64,000 bases of DNA from Powellomyces hirtus (taxonomy: Eukaryota > Chytridiomycota > Chytridiomycetes > Spizellomycetales > Powellomycetaceae), in assembly GCA_025526995.1 (NCBI GenBank), contig JAHLKG010000004.1:1649958-1713957 (forward strand), in the 5' to 3' direction. Positions within the stretch are counted from its first letter, which is position 1. Each line of letters starts with the position of its first letter. The notes beneath the pieces are model-generated. The model ran no database searches. It saw only the letters and a list, made by a program, of their open reading frames with translations, and had not been told where the DNA came from. Positions 13,594 through 34,583 of the stretch are shown here, in pieces. Position numbers and translations under genes: made by a program.

Positions 13594-14063
13594 TTTTTCA
13601 TCCCTGTCAGGGCGTAGGCATTCGATCACACATTTTTTCTTTGTTGGATATCAACCATTGAACAGAAAAACGCGCGGAGGACGATGTATATATAGACAGG
13701 GATCGGGGCCGAAGTTCTGTTTGCATAATGGTTTGGACTGCACTATACATCCACTCCGGTCCGCGATACGCCAAAGGCAGCTCGCTAATTGTTGCCCACT
13801 TACTGTATACTACATGGCCCCACATGGGAAAGATGCTGGTTAGTGGTCTTCCGCCATGGCCTATGATATTGCGATCACGACTAATCACAGCATCTTCATG
13901 GGCGTACCTTTACTCGCTGATCCCACACGGCCGTTCTTACATGGTAAACCTATGACCGTTGATATCCTGGTGGCCGATTGACTTCGCGCGCGCACAAATA
14001 AAATCAAACAACGGCATAATGACATCAACATTAAAATATATGGACTATTCCGGTGAAAACTGA
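13594..14063. other. Intergenic spacer before a retroelement remnant
   Basis: About 470 bp without a supported gene. The in-frame TGA at 14061 marks the 5' limit of recognisable retroelement sequence. Confidence 0.4.
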
Positions 14064-14786
14064 AAAGAATGGCTTCCATTAGTTGAATTTGCTATCAATT
14101 CAACCCCTCGCCGACTTCTTAATGGTTTGACACCCTACGAAGTCGAACTTGGTCGAACACCGCAAGCACCTGGGTGGACTATTCCGCCCCATCTTCTCAA
14201 TGCCATGACTGCACCCAAACGCGAAGACATTATTCGAATGCGAACTGCAGCTACCGAAATCACTCGAATTGTCCAACAACTACTACGTGATGCGCAGGAT
14301 CGATATGAGTTACGATTTAATGTCGGTCAAAATCCCATTACCTTTTCCATTGGAGATCAGGTTGACCTTAACAGGACTGATTTAACTGTTGAATTCAATG
14401 ACATCAAACCGGACAAACTACTTCCGAAATGGATAGGCCCATTCCGTGTTATGGAGAAAGGACCACATCCCGATACTTATCGATTGGACCTTGAAGGCAC
14501 CGCTATTGGCAATATTTGGCCATACTTCCATGTCAATGTTTTACGACCCCACGTCGCATCTGAGCATCCATTACGCAAACACACACCGTCTCCTGAAGAA
14601 CCCGTCATTATCCGTGGGCAACCGGAATACGCTATTGAGAAGATCCTCAGCGCGCAACGTCAAAGAAATAAACGTGAATTTCTTCTCAAATGGGTTGGAT
14701 ACTCAGATCCCACTTGCGAACCTGAAGCGGCATTACGTAACACTGAAGCCTTTAAGATTTGGCATGCAAATCATTGCTCATTGTAA
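14064..14786 (+). pseudogene. Ty3/gypsy chromovirus pol remnant: integrase C-terminus and chromodomain
   Basis: Truncated remnant of a Ty3/gypsy pol gene. It begins inside the integrase C-terminal part (frame reading EWLPLVEFAINSTPRRLLNG, then TPYEVELGRTP), continues through the GPY/F-type region (PKWIGPFRVMEKGPHPDTYRL, YFHVNVLRP), and ends with a chromodomain (PEYAIEKIL, then REFLLKWVGYSDPT). The reverse transcriptase, RNase H and catalytic integrase are missing. An in-frame TGA lies at 14061-14063 where Trp would be expected. No LTR was found on either side. It is a different family from the full-length Ty3/gypsy element at 23-31 kb, because the chromodomain sequences differ clearly. Confidence 0.85.
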
Positions 14787-15812
14787 CTACCAAACCGTAA
14801 GACGCTGCACGGAAGCGCAGCGTCATTGGCAGAATACGGCGCTTGCTGAACAACTACAAGGAAGCGCAGCGCCAGCCTTGGGACGCAGCGCCTACTGACC
14901 TATTTTTTGGTCAAATCATTTATTTTGCATTGAACCCATAGAAATGGATAGAATGGTAGCACTTACTTCTATAGTTTACATTTGTAAACTTCCGCGTATA
15001 CATCGCGAAGAGGCAGATGAATTTTCCTGCTTGAGCTCTTCTATGCTCCATACTGCGTATATTGCAAGACAAAGTATAGTGACCAATGTCCTGCTTCATA
15101 CCGCACTCAATGGAGTAGCGATGTTTTCCAATACTTAACAAAGTATTGACAATTCTATAAAGGTTGTGACTCAATGCCATAAATAAATAGGCTTGAGTCA
15201 ACGGGGACTGTCATACACCCCGCGTCCAAAGATACTATCTTTCAAGCCACTGGTTTGATTTCCAAACGACGCGGATCGAAGTTGGGCAAGCAATGGCGGA
15301 AACAAGCCTCATCCTATCTCATTATCACATGCAGCCTGAAACAAAGATAATGCGTGTTTTTGTACTCGGTGAACTCACTGCTGTATCCGCGATAAGAAAG
15401 CGGCTTAATAATTGTTGCAATAAGCGGAAATGGGCATGAGGTATAAATAGTACAGTGCTTCCTGCTCCCGTTTAAGAAATATATTGTCTTCTGAACCCAC
15501 ACTGGTGTTCTATTCCTTGTTTTATTCGCCCTAAGACACTGAAAAACCACTTGTATTACACACGTCTCTTTGAACAAGTGAAAAACAACACATGTTACAC
15601 TTGTGTTATTCTTTGGCAAAAATAAACAATGTGTGTTGTTGAGTAAAACAAAAAAATATGCAGATTCTATCATGAGTAAAGTGCTAACCTTAATTCACAG
15701 AAGTTTAAGTCAGTTAAAGGTTTGAGAACGTGATGCAACTGTACATCAAGATTCTCACAGTGCACCACAATGTGCCAGTTAGCTTTGATGAGTGATATAT
15801 ATAATATTATTT
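14787..15812. other. Gene-less AT-rich stretch
   Basis: About 1 kb. The first 110 bp contain several GGAAGCGCAGCG-like repeats that may be leftover retroelement sequence. Beyond that no gene, LTR or RNA was recognised. Confidence 0.4.
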
Positions 15813-16345: not shown

Positions 16346-16600
16346 TGTTGAAACTGGACTTGTGAGATAAACCTGTCAAATTGACAGCGCTCCAAGACCC
16401 CACGACACTTCTGCTGCACACTGGCGCTTCATTTAACCACGTATGATTAGATAGCTTGCACAGCCACTTTTGTTCTTTTTAGCGTAGATCTCTTTCACCC
16501 ATTGTTCTACACTTAACAACACAATCATTCCATTGTTATTGAAAGTGTTGAGCTAGCTTTCCTCTGTTGCACTACCCCTTAACCGGACCTACGCACAACA
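16346..16600 (+). repeat. 5' LTR of the Ty1/copia element
   Basis: 255 bp, starting TGTTGAAACTGG and ending ACGCACAACA. It matches the copy at 21419-21673 over its whole length with scattered substitutions. Confidence 0.95.
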
Positions 16601-16681: not shown

Positions 16682-19600
16682 ATGCCATTGTCCTGTAGCC
16701 CCGTTCGGACCCGGTCCGGAACAAACACTGCGTCTGCGCCGATGCAGGCTTCTGCAAATGGGGGTCCTTGCAGTAAGGACGACAGAGGTCGAGCCGGTCA
16801 ACCTGACAACACAGTTGTCGCTAAGGAGTATTTGGAGAAGGCGCTGTTGAAATCCCAACACATTACCGCCGAAATGCAGGAATGCATGCTGCTAGAATTG
16901 CAGCGACTCGCCGCTGAGTCACAACGAGAGATGATGGAGAAGATGATCTCCAATTTTGCACAGATGCAAATGCAGACGGCCGCTGCTGCAAACTCTTGGG
17001 TCTTCCCGGAATACCGCCCAGACTCTTGTTCATTGAAGAACTCTTCTCCCACTTCGTCCTCAATGAATCCCATTGCAAAGGAGCTTCTTAAGCAGGTTCC
17101 TAACTTCAACAGCGATGTGAGCAGTCCGCAACTGCTTCTTGAATTCATGGCAAAACTAGATGACTTCTTTGAGGTTGCATACCTTCCGCCGCTTCTCGAA
17201 ACGAAGATGGCGGTGAGCAAACTCACATCCACCGCTCACATTTGGTGGGGGATTCAGAAAAGCCAGGGGACTGCTCCCCAAGCGTGGAATCTTTTCTAAA
17301 CAGCGCTACATCTGAGGTTCACACCACCAGCGTTCAGTTCAATGATCCGTGATAAGCTGGATGATCTCTTGCAATCCACGTCCATTGTTGCATACCACAA
17401 TGTGTTCAACAAGCTTGTCATGCAGATCCCCAACATGAACAAAGGAGAGATCGAGCACCGCTATCTCAAGGGACTCAAACGATCTACTCGGCCATCATCT
17501 CGAAGGATCTCTTGGATCTAGATGTCATGCAGGAAGCTGCAACTCGTCAGGAACAACTTACCTCAGAGCAGGGTGCCCGCGCGCCCAAAAACGAGTCTCG
17601 CATTGAAGCTCATGTGATGCACAGCGGCCCGGCTGCCAACGCCAACGTCAACGCACATGCGCATCGAAAACCGTGGAAAACGTATCCACGGAAGGATTCA
17701 CAACAACGTCGCCGCTTAGTCCCAGGGTCTCCTTGTCACCTCTGTGACCAAACTGGTCATTGGATGAAGGACTGCCTGCAAATGAGAAACGCGCGTGCGC
17801 TTCTCAAACAACATCAGCAAGGACCCGGTGCTGAAGCAAACCTTGTTTTGGCAACGAACCACCGATCCTCGCACTCAATTGCTCTTGACTCTTGCGCAAC
17901 GCATCACGTCATCAAGGACTCTATCCTTCTCACCGACCTGCGACCCATCCCGGCAGTTCAAATCAGCGTCGCAAATGGCAAAAACCTCATCGCCCGTCAA
18001 GCAGGCACGCTCACCGTCAGCAACAACGACACGGACAAAGCTATAGTCTGCATCGACGCGCTCTACGTACCCGACGCAAGCCGCAATCTGGTTTCCACAT
18101 CGCCCTTGAACCAGGAGGGTTATGTGATTACGTTCTCAACTAAAGGTTCCTCTATTTCAAAGGACGGCCGCGTCATCCTGCCGCTCCGCCACAACGGAAA
18201 CCTGCCATTTATCGATGGCTACGTTGAGACCACTGCCGCTGCCTTTGCAACCGAAGCTGCAAAACAAAGGACCGCAATGTCTATAAACTATGGCATCAAC
18301 GCTTTGGGCACATCGGACAACAAGCGCTTCAAGCTGCGAATCTGATCTATTCTCTCGATCTGCCAAACAACATTGAACCGGAGCACGCGCTGTGCTCCGG
18401 CTGCTCCCTTGGTAAATCCACTCGGCTGCCCTTCAATGGGCAAAACTCTCGACCTGCGACCAAACCTCTTGATCGCATACATTCGGACATCCTTGACATG
18501 GGCACCAGTCTTCTCTCTCTCTCTGGCGCCCGCTACATCCTCACGTTCATTGACGAATACACACGGTATTCTGTCATCTACCCCCTCAAGACCAAAGATC
18601 AAAGCAACAATTATTGGCAAAACTATTGCGCATACGCTGAATGTCATCTCGACTCCAAGATCAAGGAGCTGCGCTGCAATAACGGCGGTGAATACTATCC
18701 TCTACAGACTGAGCTGCTCGCCGACGGGATCACGTTAAACCCCACTCATCCGTACTCCTCTCAGCAAAATGGCATTGCTGAACGGTTCAACTGTACGCTC
18801 ATGGACCAGGTCCGAGCGATTCTTCATGACAGCCGCGCTCCTTTCAAAGTTTGGGGAGAAGTCGCTATGGCCGTCAACTATCTGCGTCAACGGACGCCAT
18901 CATCGTCTCTCAACGGAGAGACCCCATACCAACGTTGGTTTGGAACCCCTGCCGATGTATCAAATCTCCGCACCATCTGGAGCGAGGCCTATATACATCA
19001 ACCTGTACGCCGTCGCACACACCGCAAGCTTGGGGCTCGCGCTGTTGGACCGTTCCGACTAGTGGGATATCACCCCACTAAACAAGGCAACTACTGCCTC
19101 TATGATCCCTTGACGGATTTGATCATTGACGCACGAGACATCACAATCAACGGGGCTGATTACATCAGCCCTGTTGCTCAGAGCGACACCGCTCCCGAAT
19201 ATGTGGTTGAGCGCATCTTACTCTCTTGCAACGGCAAAGGGGGAGAGGAATTCCTGGTCAAGTGGCTTGGCTACGACGAACCAACATGGGAACCCTTGAC
19301 AATGTCTAGGACTCAGAGGCCCTGACGCGATTCACCGGAATCAAAGATGACAGCACACCCGTAATTGCCGAATTGCATGCCGCATGCAGCACTGACATCG
19401 ACGTGCCCGCCACTTACCAGGCGGCGGTCAACTCGCCGTATGCAAAAGAGTGGAAACAAGCGATCGACGCCGAACTCTTATCTCACCGCACTAACAAGAC
19501 GTGGGACACGGATACCATGCAAACACCGCCCGGCACTCACCTTGTCGATTCCAAATGGGTCTTCAAAGTCAAACGCAACGCCGATGGTTCCATCTAGAAG

Positions 19601-21418: not shown

Positions 21419-21673
21419 TGTTGGAACTGGACTTGTGAGATAAACCTGTCAAATTGACAGCGCTTCAAAACCCCACGCCACTTCTGCTGCGCACTGGTGC
21501 TTCATTTAACCACGTATGATTAGATAGCTTGCACAGCCACCTTTCTTCTTCTTAGCGTAGATCTCTTTCACCCATCGTTTTACACTTAACAACACAATCA
21601 TTCCATTGTCATTGAGAGTGTCGAGCTAGCTTTCCTCTGTTGCACTACCCCTTAACCGGATTTACGCACAACA
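21419..21673 (+). repeat. 3' LTR of the Ty1/copia element
   Basis: 255 bp, starting TGTTGGAACTGG and ending ACGCACAACA, followed by the AACAA target duplication. Confidence 0.95.
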
Positions 21674-23024: not shown

Positions 23025-23298
23025 TGTAATGAGGCGTGGCTCACCAGCCTAAGCCTAGACACGCGTCAGGAAGGGTCCCGCGCGAGATGGATGCTAGCGT
23101 CAGCATCCCGAAGGGTACAGGACCTCAGGGTGGCCACGGATGGCCATCACGTGACCAGGGCCGCTCCGCGGCCTAGAAGAAAAGTAGGAATGCTCCAACA
23201 AAGGCGCATTCAAGACTTAGAGATCTTACAGTAGAATTAGACATAGGGAATTCCCGAATAGAAGACTAGACTCTGGCAACGGACCTAGTATTATTACA
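23025..23298 (+). repeat. 5' LTR of the Ty3/gypsy element
   Basis: 274 bp; matches 30711-30985 with scattered substitutions. Confidence 0.95.
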
Positions 23299-23326: not shown

Positions 23327-24536
23327 ATGGCACGTAGCACCAGGAACAGCCCAATGGCAGTAGGAGAACCCGAAGCCGACACACCGACCAACAACCCCGT
23401 CGCAATGTTAGCTGCACAATTGGCGGAGACCCAACGCCTACTGCAGGAACAGATCGCAATGGGAGAGGCCCGCTTCGAAGCCCTTCTCTCAAGGATTCCG
23501 ACCCCAGTCCAACCAGCGGTTGCAACACCGCACGTCAACATCATCCTGGCGGAAGAAAACTGCGCACGAATGCAAGCTGAGAAGGAACGCCGAGAGAACC
23601 TTTGCAAGCAGCTGACACACTTCGACGGAAAAGGGAACAGTGAAGAAATGGTGTCGAAGGTCGACGAGTTCCTGAAGGTCCACACGCGCTACCTTGAGGC
23701 AACCGACTTCAGGACGGACCACCGGGACGTCGACCACATCTCGAGGTACCTCAAGGAAACCGCCGACGAATGGTGGCAAATGCTCAGAGATGCTGGCGAC
23801 CAGCCCACGACATTGGAAGAATTCACAAGGATCCTCCGCATCCGCTTCTACCCCGCCAACTTACGAAACACCGCAGAAGCAAAGATGAAGCGGTTGGTTT
23901 TCACCAATAGCATATCGGAGTATATCGCCAAGTTCAATACCCTTCGGGCCCAGATTGCAACGCTTGACGACAAGGAGCGGCTTACCCCAAGGCAAGAACG
24001 TGCCTATTTCTTGACAGGATTCTCGACCAACCATGTCGGCCAGCGCATTCGGGACCACTGCTATGCCGCAATCATGAGGAATAATGGCGCCGAGATCCCG
24101 ATCACCGAGCTACAGAATGAAGCTCTACTATGCTACAGGATTCGAGGCTATGCGGACGATGTCGCGCAGGTAACCCCCAACGGGAGGAGACGTCAGTACG
24201 CTGCAGTCCAGCCGGCTCAGGTACATCGAGGGAACTATCAAGCACGAGAAAGGGGACGCCACACCCCCTATGGCTCAGGTCGTCCCACACGCGGTATGGA
24301 CAACTACCAAGGGATTTCACGCCGTGAGCGCACCATCTACGACGAACGCCGTGAGCGCACGAATGTTTCAACTGCGGGGGCAAGGGGCATTACGCCCGTG
24401 GGTGCCCAGCAAGTAAAGGTAAAACCGGTGAGCATAGGACGTTTGCTGCCCCTGTAGAGATCACCAAAGGGTCCGGAGACGAGGCGGCCAGCGACGGGGG
24501 CTCAGTCAACAGCTCGGATTTTTGCCCCGGGTGCTG
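23327..24536 (+). pseudogene. Ty3/gypsy Gag with CCHC zinc knuckle, one frameshift
   Basis: Starts at ATG 23327 (MARSTRNSPMAVGEPE). It contains a Gag capsid-like region (about residues 85-260, including KGNSEEMVSKVDEF, YLKETADEWWQML, and RFYPANLRNTAEAKMKRL). The zinc knuckle CFNCGGKGHYARGC at about 24364-24406 lies in another frame than the first 345 residues, so one base has probably been lost near 24358. The Gag frame then runs to a TGA at 24534-24536 and overlaps the start of pol, which is open in the -1 frame. A T5 run lies in the overlap, so a -1 ribosomal shift is possible but not shown. Confidence 0.85.
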
Positions 24537-27500
24537 AACGCTTGCACCGTCTCAGTACCCCAACCCCAAATGCAAGACAAGATCCCCACGGACAGACCGG
24601 GACCCCGCATTCACAGGAAGACATTTGTGGTCCACGGGAAGGTACAAGGGCACTTTGCCCGCATCCTAATCAATACCGGATGTAACACCCTGATCATCAG
24701 CGACACTTGGGCCGCCAAACACGGCCTCCGGACCTACACCTCCCCAACTCCGCTGGTGGTCCGGTGGGGCGACAGAGTGGGAAACTACGGGGCAACAAAG
24801 ATGACCTGTGGGGACCTCTCGGTGTTCACCGAGGAGAAGATCATCTACTGGGAGGATACCGTACCGTTCGTGGTCGCGCCGATCAGGGTCGATGCCATAC
24901 TGGGCTTGCCATTCATATTGGGGCTGGACGTCCGAGGGCTTTTCGACCAAGGGGGCTTTCCAACGATGACGTTCTACCACGACGGCCAGACCCTCAGCCT
25001 TCGAGCCAAATTGACCAACCGCCACTGGGAAGCACCATCCGCGTGCGCCGCCCGTCTACTCTCCCCACGAGAGGTACGGCCCCGCAGATTCCAGCCGGCG
25101 AAGTCAGCACTCAATGCAGAGGGAATCTACACAGCCAAGCAATGGAAACGCTTGATGAAGAAGGGCAAGATCACTGGAGTCTTCGAGGTACAAATTGTAG
25201 ATGCAATTCCAGTTGCAGAGGCTCAATTTGTACGGACGGTCGATGCCAAGAAAAGGGCAATCTTGGAGGAACGACGCCACACCAATACTGAAGCCAAGGC
25301 GGCAGATCAAGAAGACCCGCTAGAGACGCTGGCAGCCGACCATCCACTCCGACTGACCCTAGAAAAATACGTCATGACGCTATTCACCAAGCAGTCAGGC
25401 ATCCCTCCGGACCGAGGCGAGGACAATTTCACCATTCGGCTCAAACCCGGCTCGAAGCCCGTGATGCAGCCACTTTGGCATTTGAGAGCTGACAAACTGG
25501 ACGAGCTCGGCCAGCAGATGCAGCGTTTAATGGACAAGGGTTGGATCTCACACTCTCGCAGTCTGTGGGGCGCGCCCGTCCTATTTGCCCCAAAGAAGGA
25601 CGGCGGCCTACGCTGCTGCATTGACTACCGGGCATGGAACAAGATGACTCACAAGGATGCCATGCCACTTCCGAACCTCTCGGAGCTGCGCGACAGGCTT
25701 GTCAACATGCGGGTATTCACCGCGATCGACATCCGCAACGCGTACCACTGCATCATGATCCGACCGGAAGATAGGGAGAAAACAGCGTTCCGAACACGTT
25801 TTGGACATTTCGAATACAATGTTCTACCTTTCGGCTTAACTAATGCACCTGCTACATTCCAGCGACTAACCAACAAGCTCTTGGGCGACAAGTACGACGC
25901 CTACGTGATATCATACCTCGACGATATCCTCATATTCAGCACCGACATGAGTTCGCACATTCAGCAAGTCGACGAGGTCCTCAAGACCTTGACGGAACAT
26001 CGCCTCCACATCAAACCCAGCAAATGTCAATGGGCGGTTGACGAAGTCGAGTTCTGCGGCCACCGAGTCGGCAAGGATGGCCTAAGTATTGCCCCCTCCA
26101 AGGTGACCGCGGTCCGGGAACGACCTCGCCCGACCAACTCCCTGGAGCTCCTTAGCTTCATGGGCCTTGTCAACTATGTCCAGGAATACATCCCCGAGTA
26201 TCCACAGATTGCCCTACCCCTAACGAATCTGCAATCCGGCAACCGCCCATGGCAGTGGGGTGACAAGGAAGATCGAGCGTTCAATCGCTTAAAGGAATTA
26301 TGCTCCTCGGCACCCACTCTAGCGTACTTCGACCCGGCACTCGACACCTACTTGTTCACGGACGCATCGGGCTACGCCTACGGCGGATGGCTGGCGCAGC
26401 CGGCCAAAGGGGATTTCCCTTACCCTCACCCACTACCAACCACCAAATCGGGCTTAGCCAACCTCCCGCAACTTTGCCCGGTGACATACTACTCCCGCAA
26501 GATGCAACCCGTCAAGACTCGATACCCCGTGCATGAACAAGAACTACTGGGATTAGTCAAGTCCATACGCGCCAACCGCCATTACCTCATTGGCCGCCCA
26601 TTCCGCGCGTTTGTTGACCACAAGTCCCTGATCTACCTCCAGGAACAACCCCACCTGTCACGTCACCAAGCAGGCTGGGTCGAGTTCCTCCAACAGTTCG
26701 ATTTCTCAGTGGAATACCTCCCCGGCACATGGAATTCGATCGCCGACTTCCTCAGTCACGACCTGACTTACGCCCCCAAGTGTGCAACCTGCCAGGCCAA
26801 GATCGACGTGGTCACCGCCATTGTGCAGACGGAGAAGCCCGTCCCGACGCACATGCCGACCGATGCGGACTGGACCCAGGCGCTCGCATCGGATGATTTT
26901 GGCCAAAACATCTTACTAACCATCAACAGTCCCCCGGAGAACCTATCCGGCCATGCACGCCAATTCCGGACAGTGGACTCTCCTCCACACCGCTTCTTGA
27001 TGTACCACGACCGTTGGTACGTCCCCGACAGCTTGCGGGGGCCACTCCTTCAGACTCATCACGACTCCCTCGCGAACGGTGGTCACTCCGGTGTCCAACG
27101 AACGCTCGCCAAACTTCTGGAGTCGTACTATTGGCCTCACATGGAGCGCGATGTGTACCAATATGTCCGCACCTGCCCTACCTGCCAATGTCACAAGCGA
27201 ACCGCGCCGATTGGTTTCCTCCGCAGCTTACCGATCCCTGACGCTTGTTGGCAACAAATCGGCATGGATATATTCTCCCCCACGTCAGGCTTTAAGGGGG
27301 GGGAACCTCAGGTAGAGCCCGACGTGACGAAGAACCCTTCACACCACACCGGCAAGAGACTGACCAAGAAGGCGGACACCGTACTCCTCATTGTTGACTA
27401 CCTTTCATGCCGCGTGATACTTTTACCTACTAACACACGCGCTACAGCTCAGAAGACGGCTCAACTCTTTCTGGAACAGGCATTCCGCCACACGGGGTTA

Positions 27501-28460
27501 CCCCACACCATCGTGAGCGATCGGGACCCCAAGTGGCTATCAGAATTCTGGCGGCACCTTATGTGGACACTTGACGTCAAGCAGGAACTCTCGTCGGCAA
27601 GACACCAACAGACCGACGGCAAGGCGGAGAACGCCATCAAGACAATCAAGGGAATCATGGGCCCCTTTCTTGACTATGCCGGCTCCGACTGGAAGAGTTT
27701 ACTCCCCACCCTTGAGTACAACTAAAACTGAACGCCGCAGACGTCGACGGGACTATCCCCTTTCGAGATTGACCTAGGCCGCGTTCCCCGGGTACCGAAC
27801 CAATGGGTAGCATCTAACTCCGGAGAGATGATAAGGCAATCGGCACGAACCACCGTGGAGAGACAGATTAAGGAATTTGTCGATGTGAGTCCCATCGTGC
27901 AGCAACGGCTACAAGACGCACAGGACCAGCAGGCAAGGTACTACGACCGCAAGAAGCACACGGAAGCATACCGAGAGGGTGACAAGGTCTTACTTCATCG
28001 TGAAGGTATCGCGATTACCAGCGTCACCACAAGGAACAAAAAGCTGGCTGAACAATGGATTGGGCCATTCACAGTACGCGGCAAGGGCCCGCATCCTGAC
28101 ACCTACGAGCTTGAACTACCCAAGGACTTCACCGGGTTGCACCCAGTCTTTCATGTCAGCATTCTGAGACGTTACCACGACCCGGACGGTACCCCGTACA
28201 GACAGGTCACCGCCCCGCCTGAGCCCGAGAAGGACAAAGACGGTCAGGAGACCTACCAAGTGGACAAGATCCTAAATGCCAGATGGCACAGGAACCCCGA
28301 GCAGTTCTTAGTCAAGTGGACAGGTTACAACAACACCCAGAACAAGTGGGAGCCGTATGCACACATGAAGGTAACGACCGCACTGGAAGAATGGCTCCAG
28401 GAGCACCCCGGAGAGGACCGCGGCCAAAGGCTAGCGGCCAGGCGACGTAAGAGAACCTAG
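24522..28460 (+). pseudogene. Ty3/gypsy Pol: protease, RT, RNase H, integrase, chromodomain
   Basis: A single frame of about 1300 codons interrupted only by TAA at 27723 and TGA at 27729. Protease region: LINTGCNTLIIS, where the catalytic Asp of the usual DTG/DSG motif is Asn (codon AAT at 24672). Reverse transcriptase: YLDDILIFS. RNase H: YLFTDASGYAYGG. Integrase: HHCC zinc motif (HHDSLANGGH...CPTCQC), then Asp in GMDIFSP, Asp in SDRDPKW and Glu in DGKAENAI. After the two stops the frame continues through SPFEIDLG, WIGPFTVRGKGPHPDTYEL and HVSILRRY. A chromodomain closes the protein (YQVDKIL, FLVKWTGY, KWEPYAHM). The altered protease and stops suggest that this copy cannot mobilise itself. 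Confidence 0.95.
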
Positions 28461-28524
28461 ATAGCGAGCTGTACTGTAAATTAACAAGAGAGATGCTACT
28501 TGAGGTAGAGGACATTATAGTGCG

Positions 28525-29270
28525 AGATTCCGGCATCGTTGGACGATGGCCGGAGGCTGCTGGGCAGCATACCTCGCTGGGCGAGATGCCGGCATTGTTG
28601 GACGATGGCTGAAGGCTGCTGAGCAGCATACCTCACTGGGTGAGATGCCGGGATCGCTGGGCAATGAGCCGACGGCTTGCCGATGCAAGGTGACCGGCAC
28701 CAGATTTGCATGGCGGCGTACCTCGAGACCCGCGGGGACCATGGCCATGGTACATACCTACGCAAAGGGGAAGAGAAGGGCTTCGGCCAAGATACCGGCA
28801 TTGTTTGACGATGGGCCGAAGGCCGCTGGGGGGCATACCTCACTGGGTGAGAAGGGTGATGCTGGGCATTGACCGGCTGCCGATGCAAGGTGACCGGCAC
28901 CAGATTTGCACGGCAGCGTACCTCGAGACCTGCGGGGACCATGGCCGCAGTACATACCCACGCGAAGGGGAAGAGAAGGGCTTTGGCCAAGATACCGGCA
29001 TCGTTTGACGATGGGCCAAAGGTTGCTGGGCGACATACCTTGCTGGGCGAGATGCCGGGATCGCTGGGCGATGAGCCGAAGACTGCGAGGCAGTAGACCT
29101 CACGAGGTGAGATGCCAGCATCCTTTGACGATGGGCCAAAGGTCGCTGGGCGACATACCTCGCTGGGCGAGATGCAGGGATCGCTGGGCAATGAGCCGAA
29201 GACTGCAAGGCAGTAGACCTCACTAGGTGAGATACCGGCATCGTTGGACGATGGCCGGGGAACCGCTGGG
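28525..29270. repeat. Higher-order tandem repeat inside the Ty3/gypsy 3' region
   Basis: Repeated units of about 60 bp (containing GACGATGG...GCTGGG...CATACCTC.CTGGG.GAGATGCC) arranged in blocks of about 120 and 180-200 bp. A second unit type, with GATGCAAGGTGACCGGCACC and ending AAGAGAAGGGCTT, occurs twice. Much of the spacing is near a multiple of three, which keeps several long minus-strand frames open, but these look like by-products of the repeat. Confidence 0.85.
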
Positions 29271-29440
29271 CGGTCTTCCCAATGGGGAAGTGTGATGCAG
29301 GGCATCTACCATGAGCACCATAGCCGGGAGGAAGCCGAGTGACATTGGACACAGCGGATGCATACGAAATGCTATAAGGCTCAAGGGAGCACAGCGATGA
29401 GAAGGCAAGTACAGCGATGAGATTGTGGTACTGAATTTGA

Positions 29441-30263
29441 TTATACGGGCCGAAGGCCAGGCCCCGAAGGAGCAACAGACAACAAGTGAAAGTATGTACA
29501 AGAAGGAGGGGGGGGAGAACTAATCTTGGTGAAGAAGAATTGGCACCGGTTGCCGTGGCACCGGTCGCCCAACCCGCACCGGAGGGGGGTGTAATTTGCC
29601 ACGTTCATCTCGCTGCGGAGAGAGCTGAGTTAGTCAGGTACGACAGCAGCAGGCCAAAGAGTACTACTTACGCGCGGACGTGGCCCATGCAGTGGAGATG
29701 GTTGCATGGAAACATGCGGAGGTCCGCTCCGACATGGTTGCAGCCAGCGAACTGGCACCCAGCGGGGATGGCCGCAAAGAAGAGAACCCGGCCGCAGTGG
29801 GGGGCGCCGCACGTCAACTGGCCCTGAGGGCCGTCGTTCTGGAAAGCAAAGGAACGAAGGAACCACACCGTTAGGAAGACATCAGGCCGCCTCTCAGCGA
29901 AGGGGGGGGACATACCGTGTCATCGGCCGCCGCCACGATGCAGGGCTGGCACACCAAATGGTGGCATTCTGATGTGAACATCTTGCTCTTGCGGAATTGG
30001 TTGCACTTCCAGCAAGAGGGCAAGTCGGCCGACCTCTCGGGGGTGGACTTTTCATGGACCGAGGGGTTCTGTAGACAACAAGGGAAGACGGGGAACATGA
30101 GACGAGTTGCCACAGCCGAGGACGAGCACCGACCCCTACTCACCCGGGTGGGCTGGGCCCGCTTGGTTGCGCCTTTCGCAAGTTGCTGGGCGGGCCGGCG
30201 CTTGCCCATGGTGGTGGTGGTGGTGTTGGGGGGGGGAGGAGAGTTGTTGGGGGTGTCAGCCAT
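29441..30263 (-). CDS. Antisense double-RING-like zinc-finger gene inside the Ty3/gypsy element
   Basis: Antisense gene between the tandem repeat and the 3' LTR. Four exons with good signals and phase: 30263-30144, 30068-29916, 29838-29672, 29612-29441; donors GTGAGT, GTATGT and GTAAGT; acceptors TCTACAG, TTTCCAG and CCGCAG; 203 residues. The N-terminus is Pro/Thr-rich, then basic (GKRRPAQQLAKGATKR). First zinc module: CWKC, 12 residues, CHHLVCQPC, then CGAPHC. Second: CQFAGC, then CNHLHCMGH, then CGLGDRC. The spacing resembles a tandem RING. No stop or frameshift is needed in this model, unlike the retroelement genes around it. A TG-rich microsatellite lies just upstream of the ATG. Function unknown; ubiquitin-ligase or RNA/protein-binding roles are possible. 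Confidence 0.72.
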
Positions 30264-30300: not shown

Positions 30301-30710
30301 AGTTCGTCGAGCTACAAAGAAAAGAAGAGCGAGAGGGGGAGATTCAACGGGCAGTACCTTTTAAAGGCTCGACCTGCTTGGGAACGCTCGGAAATTCAGG
30401 TGTTAGTGTTTCATCCCCTACGGAGCGCAGCAGATGTTACTTATCGAAATCCGCATGGAGGAAGCTACTCGTGATTCATCTAGGGTCCCTGCAAAGAGAG
30501 AAATAGACTTTCCGACGATTTTGCGCACCACGAAGGGCGGAGACTACCCGTCAGGGACTACCGCGATGCGATCTGCGCCAGGGCCGCCTCCCCAGCCTCA
30601 TCTTCCCACAACCACGTCAGCATCCGTTAACCCGCCGCCGCCCGGCTTAGGCAAGCTTTGCCTCGCGGAAGAGATTCGAGCCTAAGAGATAGTCGCGAAT
30701 CTAAGGGGGG

Positions 30711-30985
30711 TGTAATGAGGCGTGGCTCACCAGCCTAAGCCTAGACACACGTCGGGAAGGGTCCCGCACGAGATGGATGCTAGCGTCAGCATCCCAAAGG
30801 GTACTAGACCTCAGGGATGGCCACGGATGGCCATCACGTGACCAGGGCCACTCCGCGGCCTAGAAGAAAAGTAGGAATGCTCCGAAGAAGGCGCATTCAA
30901 GACTTAGAGATCTTACAGTAGAATTAGTTATAGGGAATTTCCGAATAGAAGACTAGACTCTGGCAACGGACCTAGTATTATTACA
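30711..30985 (+). repeat. 3' LTR of the Ty3/gypsy element
   Basis: 275 bp, from TGTAATGAGG to TATTATTACA, preceded by the polypurine tract and followed by AGGAG. Confidence 0.95.
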
Positions 30986-31195: not shown

Positions 31196-31369
31196 TCAGA
31201 ATTTGAAGCCTGTGGTTCCGAAAGCACTGTTAAAGGTGTGGCGCGGGGGCGCTATTTTGTACTAAGCGTTGCTACTTTCCTGCGCCACAGTTCATATTTG
31301 AAACCGGTCGGCTCCCAGCTTTTAAAATGAAGCCTCCGAACAGTCGGTCCCGTAAAGTTGCCATTTGTC

Positions 31370-32443
31370 ATGGCAGACTCCAATATTATAACACAAATTG
31401 CACAGTTGATTGCTCAAAACCTGCATTCTGTTGCTGCGCAAGCTTTGCTAAAACAGAACCCGGCCGCGTATACTAGAGCTACCTACACAGAATCTGGAGA
31501 ATGCAGCCTACTTGTCCCGCCTATACATCTCCCTTTGGCTTTGCCAGCTCCGCCACAGGCCACACCGCTAACTCCACGCCAAACACCTGCACCGCAAGCG
31601 CAGGCCACACCTCCCTCAGAATCATTCTTGTGGCGTGGTGCAAGAGGAAAAGGGTTCTCTCGCACAGAAGACGAGCGCCTATGCGTGGTCTGGGTTCAGA
31701 TATCTGAGGACCCCATCACCGGCAACGAGCAGAAAGCGGATGCATTTTGGAGTCGAATCCATAAGGTGTTCAACGACAATCCACCAGACGAAGCGCGGAC
31801 CAGAAGCTCGTTGAAAAACCGCTGGGGGGTTGTGTCTCGCGCGGTTGCCAAATTCGCAGGACATATACGCTCAGCCACAGCTTCATTGCCCAGTGGTGCC
31901 ACTAGAGACCAAATCGTTCTTCTAGGAGAAGACTTCTACTACGGAGCGGAAAAGCAAAAGTTTGTCCTGCTGCACGCCTACAACTTACTGCAGAACTGCC
32001 CCAGGTAAGCAATTAATTGCGTGGGAAAGTACTGCGTGGCAACATAGTGCGTGATGCGTACCTGCGTACTGCGTGGTCATGTTGTGCGTACCTGCGTGAT
32101 GCGCACTGCGTGGTAAAGAAATGCTTTAACATCAACTTCATTTAGATTTATGGCAGACAGCGAGAAAACGCCACAAAAGGCAGCAGGAGAAAAGGACGAG
32201 GTCCGTCCAATTGGTATCAAACGAGCAAAGCGCCGACGAGATGAAGACTTATCGAAGGATGAAGAGTTGGAACTTGTGAAGCAACAGCTGGAAATACAGC
32301 AACGTGAGCTACAATTGAAGGAGGACGAGCAGCGTCTTAGCAAAGTAGAAAGACTGGTACAGCTTTTTGGGTGTGAAAGCTCCATCGCTCAAAAGGCCTT
32401 GTTTGACTTGGCCAAAGAGCTGCAAAATGAGGATAGCAGCTAG
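31370..32443 (+). CDS. Harbinger Myb/SANT-like DNA-binding protein
   Basis: Two exons, 31370-32004 and 32146-32443, with a GTAAGC donor and TTTAG acceptor in phase; 310 residues from MADSNIITQIAQ. Residues about 85-165 form a trihelix/Myb-like domain (FSRTEDERLCVVWVQISEDP, then FWSRIHKVFND, then RSSLKNRWGVVSRAVAKF). Exon 2 carries the motif RPIGIKRAKRRR and a Glu/Gln-rich coiled coil (ELELVKQQLEIQQRELQLKE), like the NAM-associated C-terminal region found in such proteins. In PIF/Harbinger elements the Myb-like partner binds subterminal DNA and helps bring the transposase into the nucleus. It is transcribed convergently with the other two genes of the element. Confidence 0.88.
32024..32115. 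repeat. Short repeats in the intron of the Myb-like gene
   Basis: Several copies of (G)TACTGCGTGG and TGCGTACCTGCGT fill the intron. The same decamer occurs at 34244-34275 in intron 1 of the transposase gene. Confidence 0.75.
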
Positions 32444-32519
32444 TATTCATGCGTGAATAAAAAAACTGTCTACCGGTTAAGGTAGCCACCAAGTTTAACG
32501 GTCGCTTTGCTTGGGACTT
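32444..32519. terminator. Convergent 3' ends of two Harbinger genes
   Basis: 76 bp between the stop of the Myb-like gene and the stop of the small minus-strand gene, with a GAATAAAAAAAC stretch that could serve as a polyadenylation signal for the plus-strand gene. Confidence 0.4.
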
Positions 32520-32979
32520 TCACCCACTTCCTCCTCCTCCACTTGCTCCTGCACCTCCTCCTCCACTTCCTCTTTGCCCCGTCCCCTCTTCTCCCCTCCT
32601 TCTTCTCTCCCCTTCCCTCCAAGCAAAGGCGCGGACCCATTTCTCTGCGTATGCGGTCACTTGATCAAACTTGGTCTGAGTTACAAGTTGCCGCAGTTAG
32701 TACAAACGGGGTCAGCAAAAAATGATGTTACACTTACCTTTGCCGCGACCATATCCCAGTTTACCTCGTCAAGGTACTCCTTCATTGCCTCTTGGTAGAG
32801 GCGTGGGTACTGGCGCTGCAGCTGACGAAGCTGCACTGCGCACCTTGCAACCTGATACAAAGAAATTAAGTGGTATGTAGGTACTATAGAAGCTCAACAA
32901 ATCTACCAAGAGCTGCTGCATCCTCTTCAGCTTGACGCTCAGCGTCAGTTGGGATTCTTGGCTTTTTGGGGCGAGGCAT
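32520..32979 (-). CDS. Third Harbinger gene: small charged, Gly-rich protein
   Basis: Three-exon model: 32979-32907, 32835-32738, 32675-32520; 108 residues, phases consistent. Intron 2 has a GTAAGT donor, a perfect TACTAAC branch site and an AACTCAG acceptor. Intron 1 is less certain, because alternative acceptors nearby would give slightly different joins. The protein starts MPRPKKPRIPTDAERQAEED, continues through a predicted helical part (LQRQYPRLYQEAMKEYLDEV) and ends in a basic then Gly/Ser-rich tail (GERRRRGEEG, then GGGGAGASGGGG). No family recognised. The basic N-terminus could be a nuclear signal. It sits downstream of the transposase on the same strand, but separate introns and spacing suggest its own transcript. 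Confidence 0.55.
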
Positions 32980-33179
32980 TGTGATGAGGAAACAGCGGGG
33001 CATTGCTACCCTAGTATAGTATAAGTATAAAAACGCTTTTGAGACATATTGACATGTGTCAAAGAAACAGTTAACCCTTTTAAGGGATATATCAAAAGGT
33101 TCCAGTTTGCGTGGCACGCTCGCATGCTCTCATTAAATCGCACTGACATGTTTTAGGGATTGCAAACGATTTGTGTAAT

Positions 33180-34583
33180 TTATTGACTACCCTTCCATTC
33201 CCATAAATGTTGTATCAGGTCTGCGCGCAACTGATGATGAAGCACAGAGTCACGCAATGTTTTTCTCCTTATTTGTTGCGATGTTTCTTTGCGACCGCCC
33301 AGAGAGATGTTAATGTCGGCAAAATCCTCTGCTATATCTTCCATTGCCGCATCTCCTTGATCCTCAATAATCATGTTGTGCAAAATCACACAGGTTTTCA
33401 TGATATTTCCCAGTTGCGCGCGATGCCATCCACGAGCGGGCCGTTGAATAATGTGCCACCGCGCTTGTAATGCTCCAAAGGCACGCTCTATGTCTTTGCG
33501 CACTGCCTCCTGCATTTGGGCAAAGAACTTCTTTTTTTCGCAGTCAGGCTGTGAAAACGTCTGCACAAACATCGCCCAAGGAGGGTATATTCCATCCACC
33601 AAATAATATCCTAGTAATGCTCTTTGTGAGTATATGCTATGCAGTATTGTACCACGCAATGCGCAGGTACGCACAACACATCACACAACGCACCTTGAGT
33701 GTATTAACGTCCATTAATCTCGTAATCAAGGTTTGGTGTGCAACCAGCCAGTTGGTCATCAAAGAGAGGGGAGCGGTCCAAGACATTAATGTCATTGTTA
33801 GCGCCGGGGATGCTGAAAAAGCAATGCCAAATTTGTAAATCGTAGGTTGCAACCGCTTCCAAAATAATCGTCGGAACCTTTTCCTTGCCTTGAAACTGAC
33901 CGGCCCACGCTCGAGGACAGTTCTTCCATGCCCAGTGCATGCAGTCCAGAGAACCAAGCAGTCCAGGAAAACCACGTTGCCTGTTGATCCGCAATATATG
34001 ATTTAGGTCATTTTGGTTTGGCGGTCTCAGGTAAGTAGCGGCATAGATGTGCACAATGGCAGCACAGAAGCGGTGTAATGCAACTGTTGCAGTAGCTTTG
34101 ACGCAGCGAACGTACTCGTCCACAGCATCTGCTGCAACACCGTAGGCGAGCATGCGTAGTGCGGCAGTAAGCTTTTGTTCGGATGACAGACCAGTAAGTC
34201 CTGTACAGTCACGACGCTATTGCAGAATTTGTGATTAATACAAACATACTGCGTGGCCACGTACTGCGTGGCCAACGGGTACTTAGTAGCGTACTTACTG
34301 GTTTAAAGTAGCGGTCACTTTTGCACAGATCTGCTTGGATACGCAGGAAAAGCTGACGTGACATTCGGAAGCGGCGCCTGAAATCCTTTTCACTGTAGAT
34401 GCAATCAGCGCTGAAATAGTCTCGAATTAGACGCTCTTGTCCGAGTGCCCTAAGGCGGTCACAATTGCAGAGGCGCTTTCTTGCTGTTTTTCTTTCCACA
34501 TCTTCTTTTTGTTCCAGTCTCCGTTGTAAAATGCGCCTACCCCACTGCCTTGTATCGTACTTGGCCCAGAGTTTGTCAAGCAT
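33180..34583 (-). CDS. PIF/Harbinger DDE transposase
   Basis: Three exons: 34583-34299, 34216-33709, 33619-33180; about 410 residues, all phases consistent (donors GTAAGT and GTTAAT). Family signatures of the plant-type Harbinger transposase: LFLRIQADLC in exon 1; GLTGLSSEQKLTAALRMLAY at the start of exon 2; first Asp in GSLDCMHW (about residue 186); second Asp in ANNDINVLDRS (about 237); YYLVDGIYPPW; and Glu in KDIERAFGALQARW (about 309). HNMIIEDQ near the end also fits. All catalytic residues are present and there are no stops. The GTTAAT donor of intron 2 is unusual and should be confirmed. It cuts and pastes the element with the help of the Myb-like partner. Confidence 0.92.
34244..34275. 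repeat. TACTGCGTGG repeats in intron 1 of the transposase gene
   Basis: Two adjacent copies (ATACTGCGTGGCC and GTACTGCGTGGCC) on the plus strand, matching those in the Myb-like gene's intron about 2.1 kb away in the same element. Confidence 0.75.

Follow-up and report, generated by a model that had tools for sequence, protein, structure and literature searches.

A spliced and conserved antisense gene for a RING-like zinc protein in a Ty3/gypsy chromovirus family of the chytrid Powellomyces hirtus

The window, i.e., the whole stretch of 64,000 nucleotides of Powellomyces hirtus DNA that was analyzed, contains a Ty3/gypsy chromovirus with LTRs of ~275 nt. Between the chromodomain end of its pol (28460) and its 3' LTR lies a gene of four exons in antisense orientation, and a neighboring Ty1/copia element contains an antisense zinc gene of its own. 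The features are as follows (positions are those of the window):

near 16346-16600 and 21419-21673: LTRs of the neighboring Ty1/copia element
21394..~20957, minus strand: antisense RING/zinc gene of the Ty1/copia element (exon 21394-21243, intron of 57 nt, exon from 21185)
~23025..23298, plus strand: 5' LTR of the Ty3 element
24522..28460, plus strand: Ty3 pol, first frame to 27725 and second frame 27828-28460, with a chromodomain at the end
28480..29300, plus strand: tandem repeats with a unit of ~60 nt, between pol and the antisense gene
29441..30263, minus strand: A-type antisense gene of the Ty3 element, in four exons; with its stop lost, this copy encodes 203 aa
29441..29612, minus strand: exon 4, CGLGDRCHGNRC, lacking 8 nt near the family stop in this copy
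29613..29671, minus strand: intron 3, 59 nt, GT-AG, giving an in-frame stop if unspliced
29672..29838, minus strand: exon 3, the rest of module 1 followed by the opening part of module 2 (CNHLHCMGH)
29839..29915, minus strand: intron 2, 77 nt, GT-AG (74-81 nt in relatives), with a CTRAY motif
29916..30068, minus strand: exon 2, CWKC...CHHLVCQPC, first part of module 1
30069..30143, minus strand: intron 1, 75 nt, GT-AG (59 nt, in one case 58 nt, in B copies)
30144..30263, minus strand: exon 1, Thr/Pro-rich start and basic segment KRR-x10-KR
30357..30367, minus strand: TATA-like CCTTTAAAAGG upstream of the ATG of the antisense gene
~30711..30985, plus strand: 3' LTR of the Ty3 element; both LTRs are immediately bordered on their outer sides by AGGAG

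An antisense gene of four exons and three introns, situated between pol and the 3' LTR, had been proposed in a preliminary description of this DNA. It is confirmed at that place, and its introns are of the GT-AG type and measure 75, 77, and 59 nt. The window copy is atypical. Since 8 nt that are present in its relatives are missing near the end of exon 4, the family stop is lost and the protein has 203 aa, the last ~25 residues not being those of the family; most intact copies encode 176-179 aa.

On the minus strand, two long open frames (269 and 211 aa) traverse the tandem repeats adjoining the antisense gene (28496-29475); the longer one had no Pfam match. To the right of the Ty3 element coding pieces occur on both strands (31358-34000), which we take, as an impression, to resemble a PIF/Harbinger DNA transposon; for the first of these pieces Pfam yielded nothing up to E = 0.001. 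A piece of another Ty3 element, distinct from the first, lies at 13980-14890 and showed an SH3 match and a sub-threshold chromodomain match.

Copies of the antisense gene were searched for in the genome from which the window comes (29.26 Mb, 60 contigs). The DNA search yielded at least 40 full-length copies with 91-100% identity (40 scored of 83 candidates). A scan with exon 2 yielded 90 matches from 90 scored candidates, which were grouped by score and identity into 69 A-type, 17 B-type, and 2 C-type matches (~88 copies), the remaining two being a short match and a match no better than chance (E = 0.03). Copies examined were 50 of the A type (L001-L030, L061-L080), 11 of the B type (L101-L108, L111-L113), and 2 of the C type (L109, L110). 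All were collected by means of the antisense gene itself, so the many conserved copies in the Ty3 family are a count of elements with the gene, and elements of the family that lack it fall outside this count. For 30 A copies flanks of up to 1.5 kb were inspected: the end of pol was present in 28 (the others being L002, at a contig end, and L011) and a stretch of 240 nt or more matching the 3' LTR was likewise present in 28 (the others being L009 and L014). The gene therefore occupies, on the antisense strand between pol and the 3' LTR, the place of the additional open reading frames termed aORF-3R, and given its multi-copy matches it is not a chance reading frame.

A spliced protein of 165-185 aa with the family end was obtained for 33 of the 50 A copies and all 11 B copies, and these 44 are hereafter called intact. 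Among the 17 A copies that failed this filter, up to 12 are those with an exon 1 whose length is not a multiple of three (12/50 A copies); by eye these off-frame lengths were located in a poly-C run, in which the assembly may be in error. Upstream of the antisense ATG a TTTAAAA core was found at a distance of 97-115 nt in 27 of 30 A copies (TTCAAAA in one, neither in two), and CCTTCAAAAGG starts 72-74 nt upstream of the ATG in all 11 B copies; neither the TTTAAAA core nor CCTTCAAAAGG was found upstream of the gene in the two C copies.

The A and B copies share their exon lengths. Exon 2 measured 153 nt in 49 and exon 3 167 nt in all of the 50 A copies, and exon 1 commonly measured 114-120 nt. 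For introns 1, 2, and 3, the donor GT was present in 48, 49, and 47 and the acceptor AG in 49, 49, and 50 of these copies, one of which is truncated through exon 1 and intron 1. The respective intron lengths were 75, 74-81, and 59 nt in A copies vs. 59 (one 58), 75-76, and 62 nt in B copies, while exons 2 and 3 of the 11 B copies were equal in length to those of the A copies. Since the introns differ in length and the exons do not, the unspliced frame cannot be the conserved one. The third donor has been lost in three B copies. The CTRAY motif was found in introns 2 and 3 of all 50 A copies and in intron 1 of none of them. The public protein P0002 (DFJ77DRAFT_512327, P. hirtus) is identical to the spliced protein of the B copy L106 and gives one independent (predicted) gene model for the splicing; a second public model from P. 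hirtus, P0003, agrees with the L102 protein as spliced over just 105 of 178 residues and departs from it thereafter.

Purifying selection across copies, which had been set as a check in the preliminary description, was found with dN/dS values of 0.31-0.39. The value was 0.33 among the 33 intact A copies (bootstrap CI 0.23-0.46), 0.31 among the 11 intact B copies (bootstrap CI 0.21-0.46), and 0.39 between A and B copies (bootstrap CI 0.26-0.56, bootstrap using every third A copy). When exons 2-4 of A-B pairs were read in all six frames the gene frame had the lowest value (0.35), the five other frames ranging from 0.60 to 1.42. In A-A pairs one opposite-strand frame had a value of 0.35 vs. 0.32 for the gene frame, but stops interrupt this opposite-strand frame in 43 of 44 copies. 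A second frame on the opposite strand is open in 34 of 44 copies and had values of 1.20 (A-B) and 0.72 (A-A). Stop-free runs on the opposite strand were as long as those on the unspliced gene strand (medians 152 and 155). With all 50 A copies included, unfiltered, codon positions 1, 2, and 3 diverged by 0.051, 0.030, and 0.073, and all 14 cysteines of the A copy L024 are retained in the B copy L106 (hypergeometric p = 0.0002). That this is a gene, that it is spliced, and that it is under purifying selection is, judged jointly from these sequence comparisons, almost certain.

Antisense transcripts over the 3' end of the element would also pair with the genomic RNA, and a role of this kind has been discussed for plants in the accessible part of one study (PMC7264820). 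A function residing in the antisense RNA, i.e., in double-stranded RNA regulation with an incidental coding frame, is nevertheless very improbable, as selection is strongest in the gene frame, the cysteines are conserved, and the lengths of exons 2 and 3 are constant. The introns, the zinc motif, the codon-level selection, and the signs of allelic exchange point to the protein as the selected part.

The encoded protein had been described as a tandem RING protein. Two modules of zinc type were indeed recovered. Module 1 has the eight ligands of a C3HC4 RING in order (C59, C62, C75, H77, C80, C83, C101, C106), each present in 42-44 of the 44 intact copies, and module 2 has the ligands C119, C124, C136, H138, C141, H144, C159, and C165, all present in 41-44 copies. 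The RING assignment held in part for module 1 and did not extend to module 2. Profile searches, which had been recommended, matched module 1 to Pfam RING models with scores that were all below the gathering cut-off (15.2 of 21 bits for the window copy, 16.8 of 21 for L025, and 18.2 of 27.9 for a B-type row two residues off L106), and the final ligand pair of module 1 is C-x4-C, not the C-x2-C of RING. The best match among solved structures was the RING of PCGF5 (E = 0.021), covering module 1 only, and all Pfam and solved-structure matches listed were in module 1. Module 2 as an internal duplicate of module 1 was rejected, their similarity not exceeding that of shuffles with C and H fixed (fractions 0.27 and 0.64). 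Structure prediction, proposed earlier as a check for a zinc fold, gave an uninformative AlphaFold model (six rows, mean pLDDT 37), in which module 1 had a strand-strand-helix-strand order at an unreliable block pLDDT of just 43-59. The ligand order of module 1 is like that of RING finger E3 ligases, with PCGF5 and RING2/BMI1 as the nearest solved structures; the Ty3 protein differs from these ligases in its sub-threshold scores, its last ligand pair, and its unmatched module 2. Considering the Pfam scores and the unusual ligand spacing, the predicted protein is RING-like rather than RING.

The same features bear on the question of what the protein acts on. A CPxC-type signature is a criterion for E2 interaction, and the Ty3 protein is without it; its ligand spacing is non-canonical and its N-terminal segment is basic. 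It may thus be an RNA- or DNA-binding zinc protein that serves as a nucleic-acid chaperone or transcription regulator outside the ubiquitin pathway, a possibility to which we give somewhat less than an even chance. The antisense proteins of the plant elements Grande and Retand are, in the accessible parts of the respective papers, nuclear or predicted to bind DNA (PMC7264820; PMC11963269). On the other hand, the ligand order C-x2-C-x12-C-x-H-x2-C-x2-C fits RING profiles best, though weakly. The basic segment of exon 1, which could be a nuclear signal, is present in A and B copies and nearly so in C copies.

No relative from outside Powellomyces was found with an A+B profile: among 5,052 candidates three proteins matched at E-values of up to 10, of which two belong to P. 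hirtus and the third is labeled as from a Powellomyces virus. The search with the A protein only scored just the 8,000 candidates with the most shared words. PHROGs gave no match up to E = 1 for two proteins, and phage records (50,697) and viral contigs, from which records close to the genome of the window may have been left out, contained no relative.

The protein with the viral label, P0001, is nearly identical to the A-type protein and was deposited as an 'oncoid' of Powellomyces chytrid fungus MELD virus 1, a class that, according to the accessible part of its authors' paper, rests solely on short linear motifs (PMC11071296). Together with matches to marker families of polinton type in the genome (5 Pox_A32, 3 D5_N), this record would fit a viral (polinton-like, 'MELD virus') gene, or a captured host gene, that happens to sit in some elements. 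We consider such an origin unlikely. P0001 belongs to the same gene family as the A-type gene but is annotated as a DNA-virus gene and unspliced, being read through introns 1 and 2, and in exons 2-3 it differs from the Ty3 copy L024 in 1 of 107 residues, so the virus record probably spans a Ty3 copy. Of the eight marker places, one had a gene copy within 21 kb, namely L006, which is flanked by Ty3 sequence; the location of the gene is a Ty3 context in the P. hirtus genome, not a DNA virus genome. The exon-2 scan, with its three types and the short and chance-level matches beyond them, revealed no clear host gene either. The case is a warning that what was deposited as a 'virus oncoid' most likely represents a retrotransposon gene translated across its introns. 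The virus marker matches themselves are scattered over the genome (e.g., G000:C26:295663-296112 and other contigs). DNA_pol_B_2 had no match in the genome, and the control was likewise without a match anywhere.

Two types of the gene, deeply diverged from each other, sit on element backbones that are similar. Protein identity between A and B is 53% and the dS of the gene is ~1.0, vs. pol dS values of 0.15 and 0.14 (window vs. L114, i.e., one B element); the pol protein of the window and this B element is 90-91% identical over most of its length and 84% in one stretch of 62 residues. Along the alignment of the window with the B element, identity is 0.95-0.97 just before the gene, drops to 0.27-0.72 across the gene and ~100 nt upstream of the ATG, and is 0.80-0.98 beyond the drop. 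With the drop limited to this segment and the dS of the gene so far above that of pol, the gene behaves as an exchanged cassette. An LTR tree of 32 rows placed three B LTRs, those of L101, L102, and L111, within the A LTRs; the fourth, L105, comes from a neighboring element in opposite orientation, and the remaining B copies are without an LTR stretch of >200 nt. When a tree was built from the flank that separates the gene from the LTR (42 rows), the B copies clustered with one another and with C, which may be due to hitch-hiking next to the gene. Because only three usable B LTRs nest among A LTRs and the flank adjoining the gene does not, our confidence was lowered slightly, and exchange of the gene as a cassette between otherwise similar Ty3 elements is considered highly probable. 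In each exon compared, the C gene is more similar to A than to B (72 vs. 64% in exon 1, 69 vs. 43% in exon 2, and 72 vs. 47% in exon 4), whereas the flanks of the C copies, which are degraded, are an outlier far from both A and B (roughly 67-83%).

An antisense gene with two zinc modules had also been reported at the equivalent place of the neighboring Ty1/copia element. This gene is real (21394..~20957), but compared with other copies the one in the window carries a frameshift in exon 2. At least 41 matches were found in the genome, one copy being in two pieces (43 candidates, 40 scored). The gene had 115-140 codons in 13 of 21 copies examined, with a dN/dS of 0.52 among these 13, four of which (the window copy, L086, L092, and L095) have altered ends. 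It resembles the Ty3 gene in strand, position, possession of an intron, and two zinc modules, and differs from it in its length of ~127 aa, its two exons, and the more canonical CP[IV]C start of its RING, which reached a Pfam E-value of 4.6e-5, under the cut-off. No relatives of the copia protein were found up to E = 0.1 among 75 candidates. Convergent capture or transfer between the two elements had been suggested, and a parallel antisense gene in a copia family is confirmed. Transfer between the superfamilies was rejected, as the comparison of the Ty3 and copia protein profiles gave a probability of 2.6% (E = 0.017) and aligned the RING motif only, with no homology beyond it; independent origins are therefore the simpler reading. 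The integrase ORF of the Ty1/copia element (18498-19325) ends in a chromodomain (PF00385, E = 1e-7, over the cut-off), a domain usually tied to Ty3 chromoviruses.

Conservation, splicing, and apparent exchange of the antisense gene suggest a useful accessory protein, and we consider it likely, as a whole explanation, that this is an accessory gene of the P. hirtus Ty3/gypsy chromovirus family, carried antisense and exchanged as a cassette. Transcription of the gene would start at a promoter of its own, located just internal to the 3' LTR. Genomic RNA would carry its introns as reverse complements invisible to the spliceosome, and the introns would by virtue of this orientation survive each round of copying; antisense-intron reporters follow the same logic. 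The protein may enter the nucleus by means of the basic segment of exon 1, where its RING-like zinc domain would act on a host or element protein. The most likely route would be recruitment of the ubiquitin machinery against a host silencing factor or for regulation of the element, although a ubiquitin-type mechanism is proposed tentatively and we would not expect it with even confidence. It is more speculative still, and rather unlikely, that the A and B genes are competing specificity alleles, that swapping of the antisense cassette retargets it to a host silencing factor or to sibling elements, and that Ty3 and copia elements independently recruited antisense RING-type genes for the same purpose. 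If true, antisense RING-type genes would join env and the antisense ORFs of plants as another kind of accessory gene. The P. hirtus genome of 29 Mb offers a testable case, with the copia gene as an independent comparison.

Antisense ORFs at this position are already known. In the accessible parts of two papers, aORF-3R between pol and the 3' LTR comprise gene23 of maize Grande, rice RIRE2, ORF4 of Silene Retand, PvRetro13, and the fungal Boty, and are present in most copies (PMC7264820; PMC11963269). They share strand and interval with the P. hirtus Ty3 gene, and in Retand tandem repeats occur near the aORF in about half of the clusters, as they do in the P. hirtus Ty3 element (PMC11963269, accessible part). 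The P. hirtus gene is unlike them in its three introns, its RING-like zinc modules, its chytrid host, and its two diverged types, and the Retand TRP28 domain (PF04195) was not among the matches listed in Pfam scans up to E = 10. Functions of the plant antisense ORFs are not known according to the accessible text of PMC7264820. Among the matches listed from the open-access literature, as far as their text was accessible, no antisense RING or ubiquitin gene was found in LTR elements, and no multi-intron, RING-like antisense ORF at this position was found described there.

A comparison can also be drawn with retroviruses, one of which encodes the bZIP protein HBZ. The HBZ gene of HTLV-1 is, in the accessible parts of the sources, an antisense accessory gene near the 3' LTR with a spliced transcript (PMC1459196; PMC2099442). 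The P. hirtus Ty3 gene has three introns, unlike HBZ, and its likeness to HBZ is one of description.
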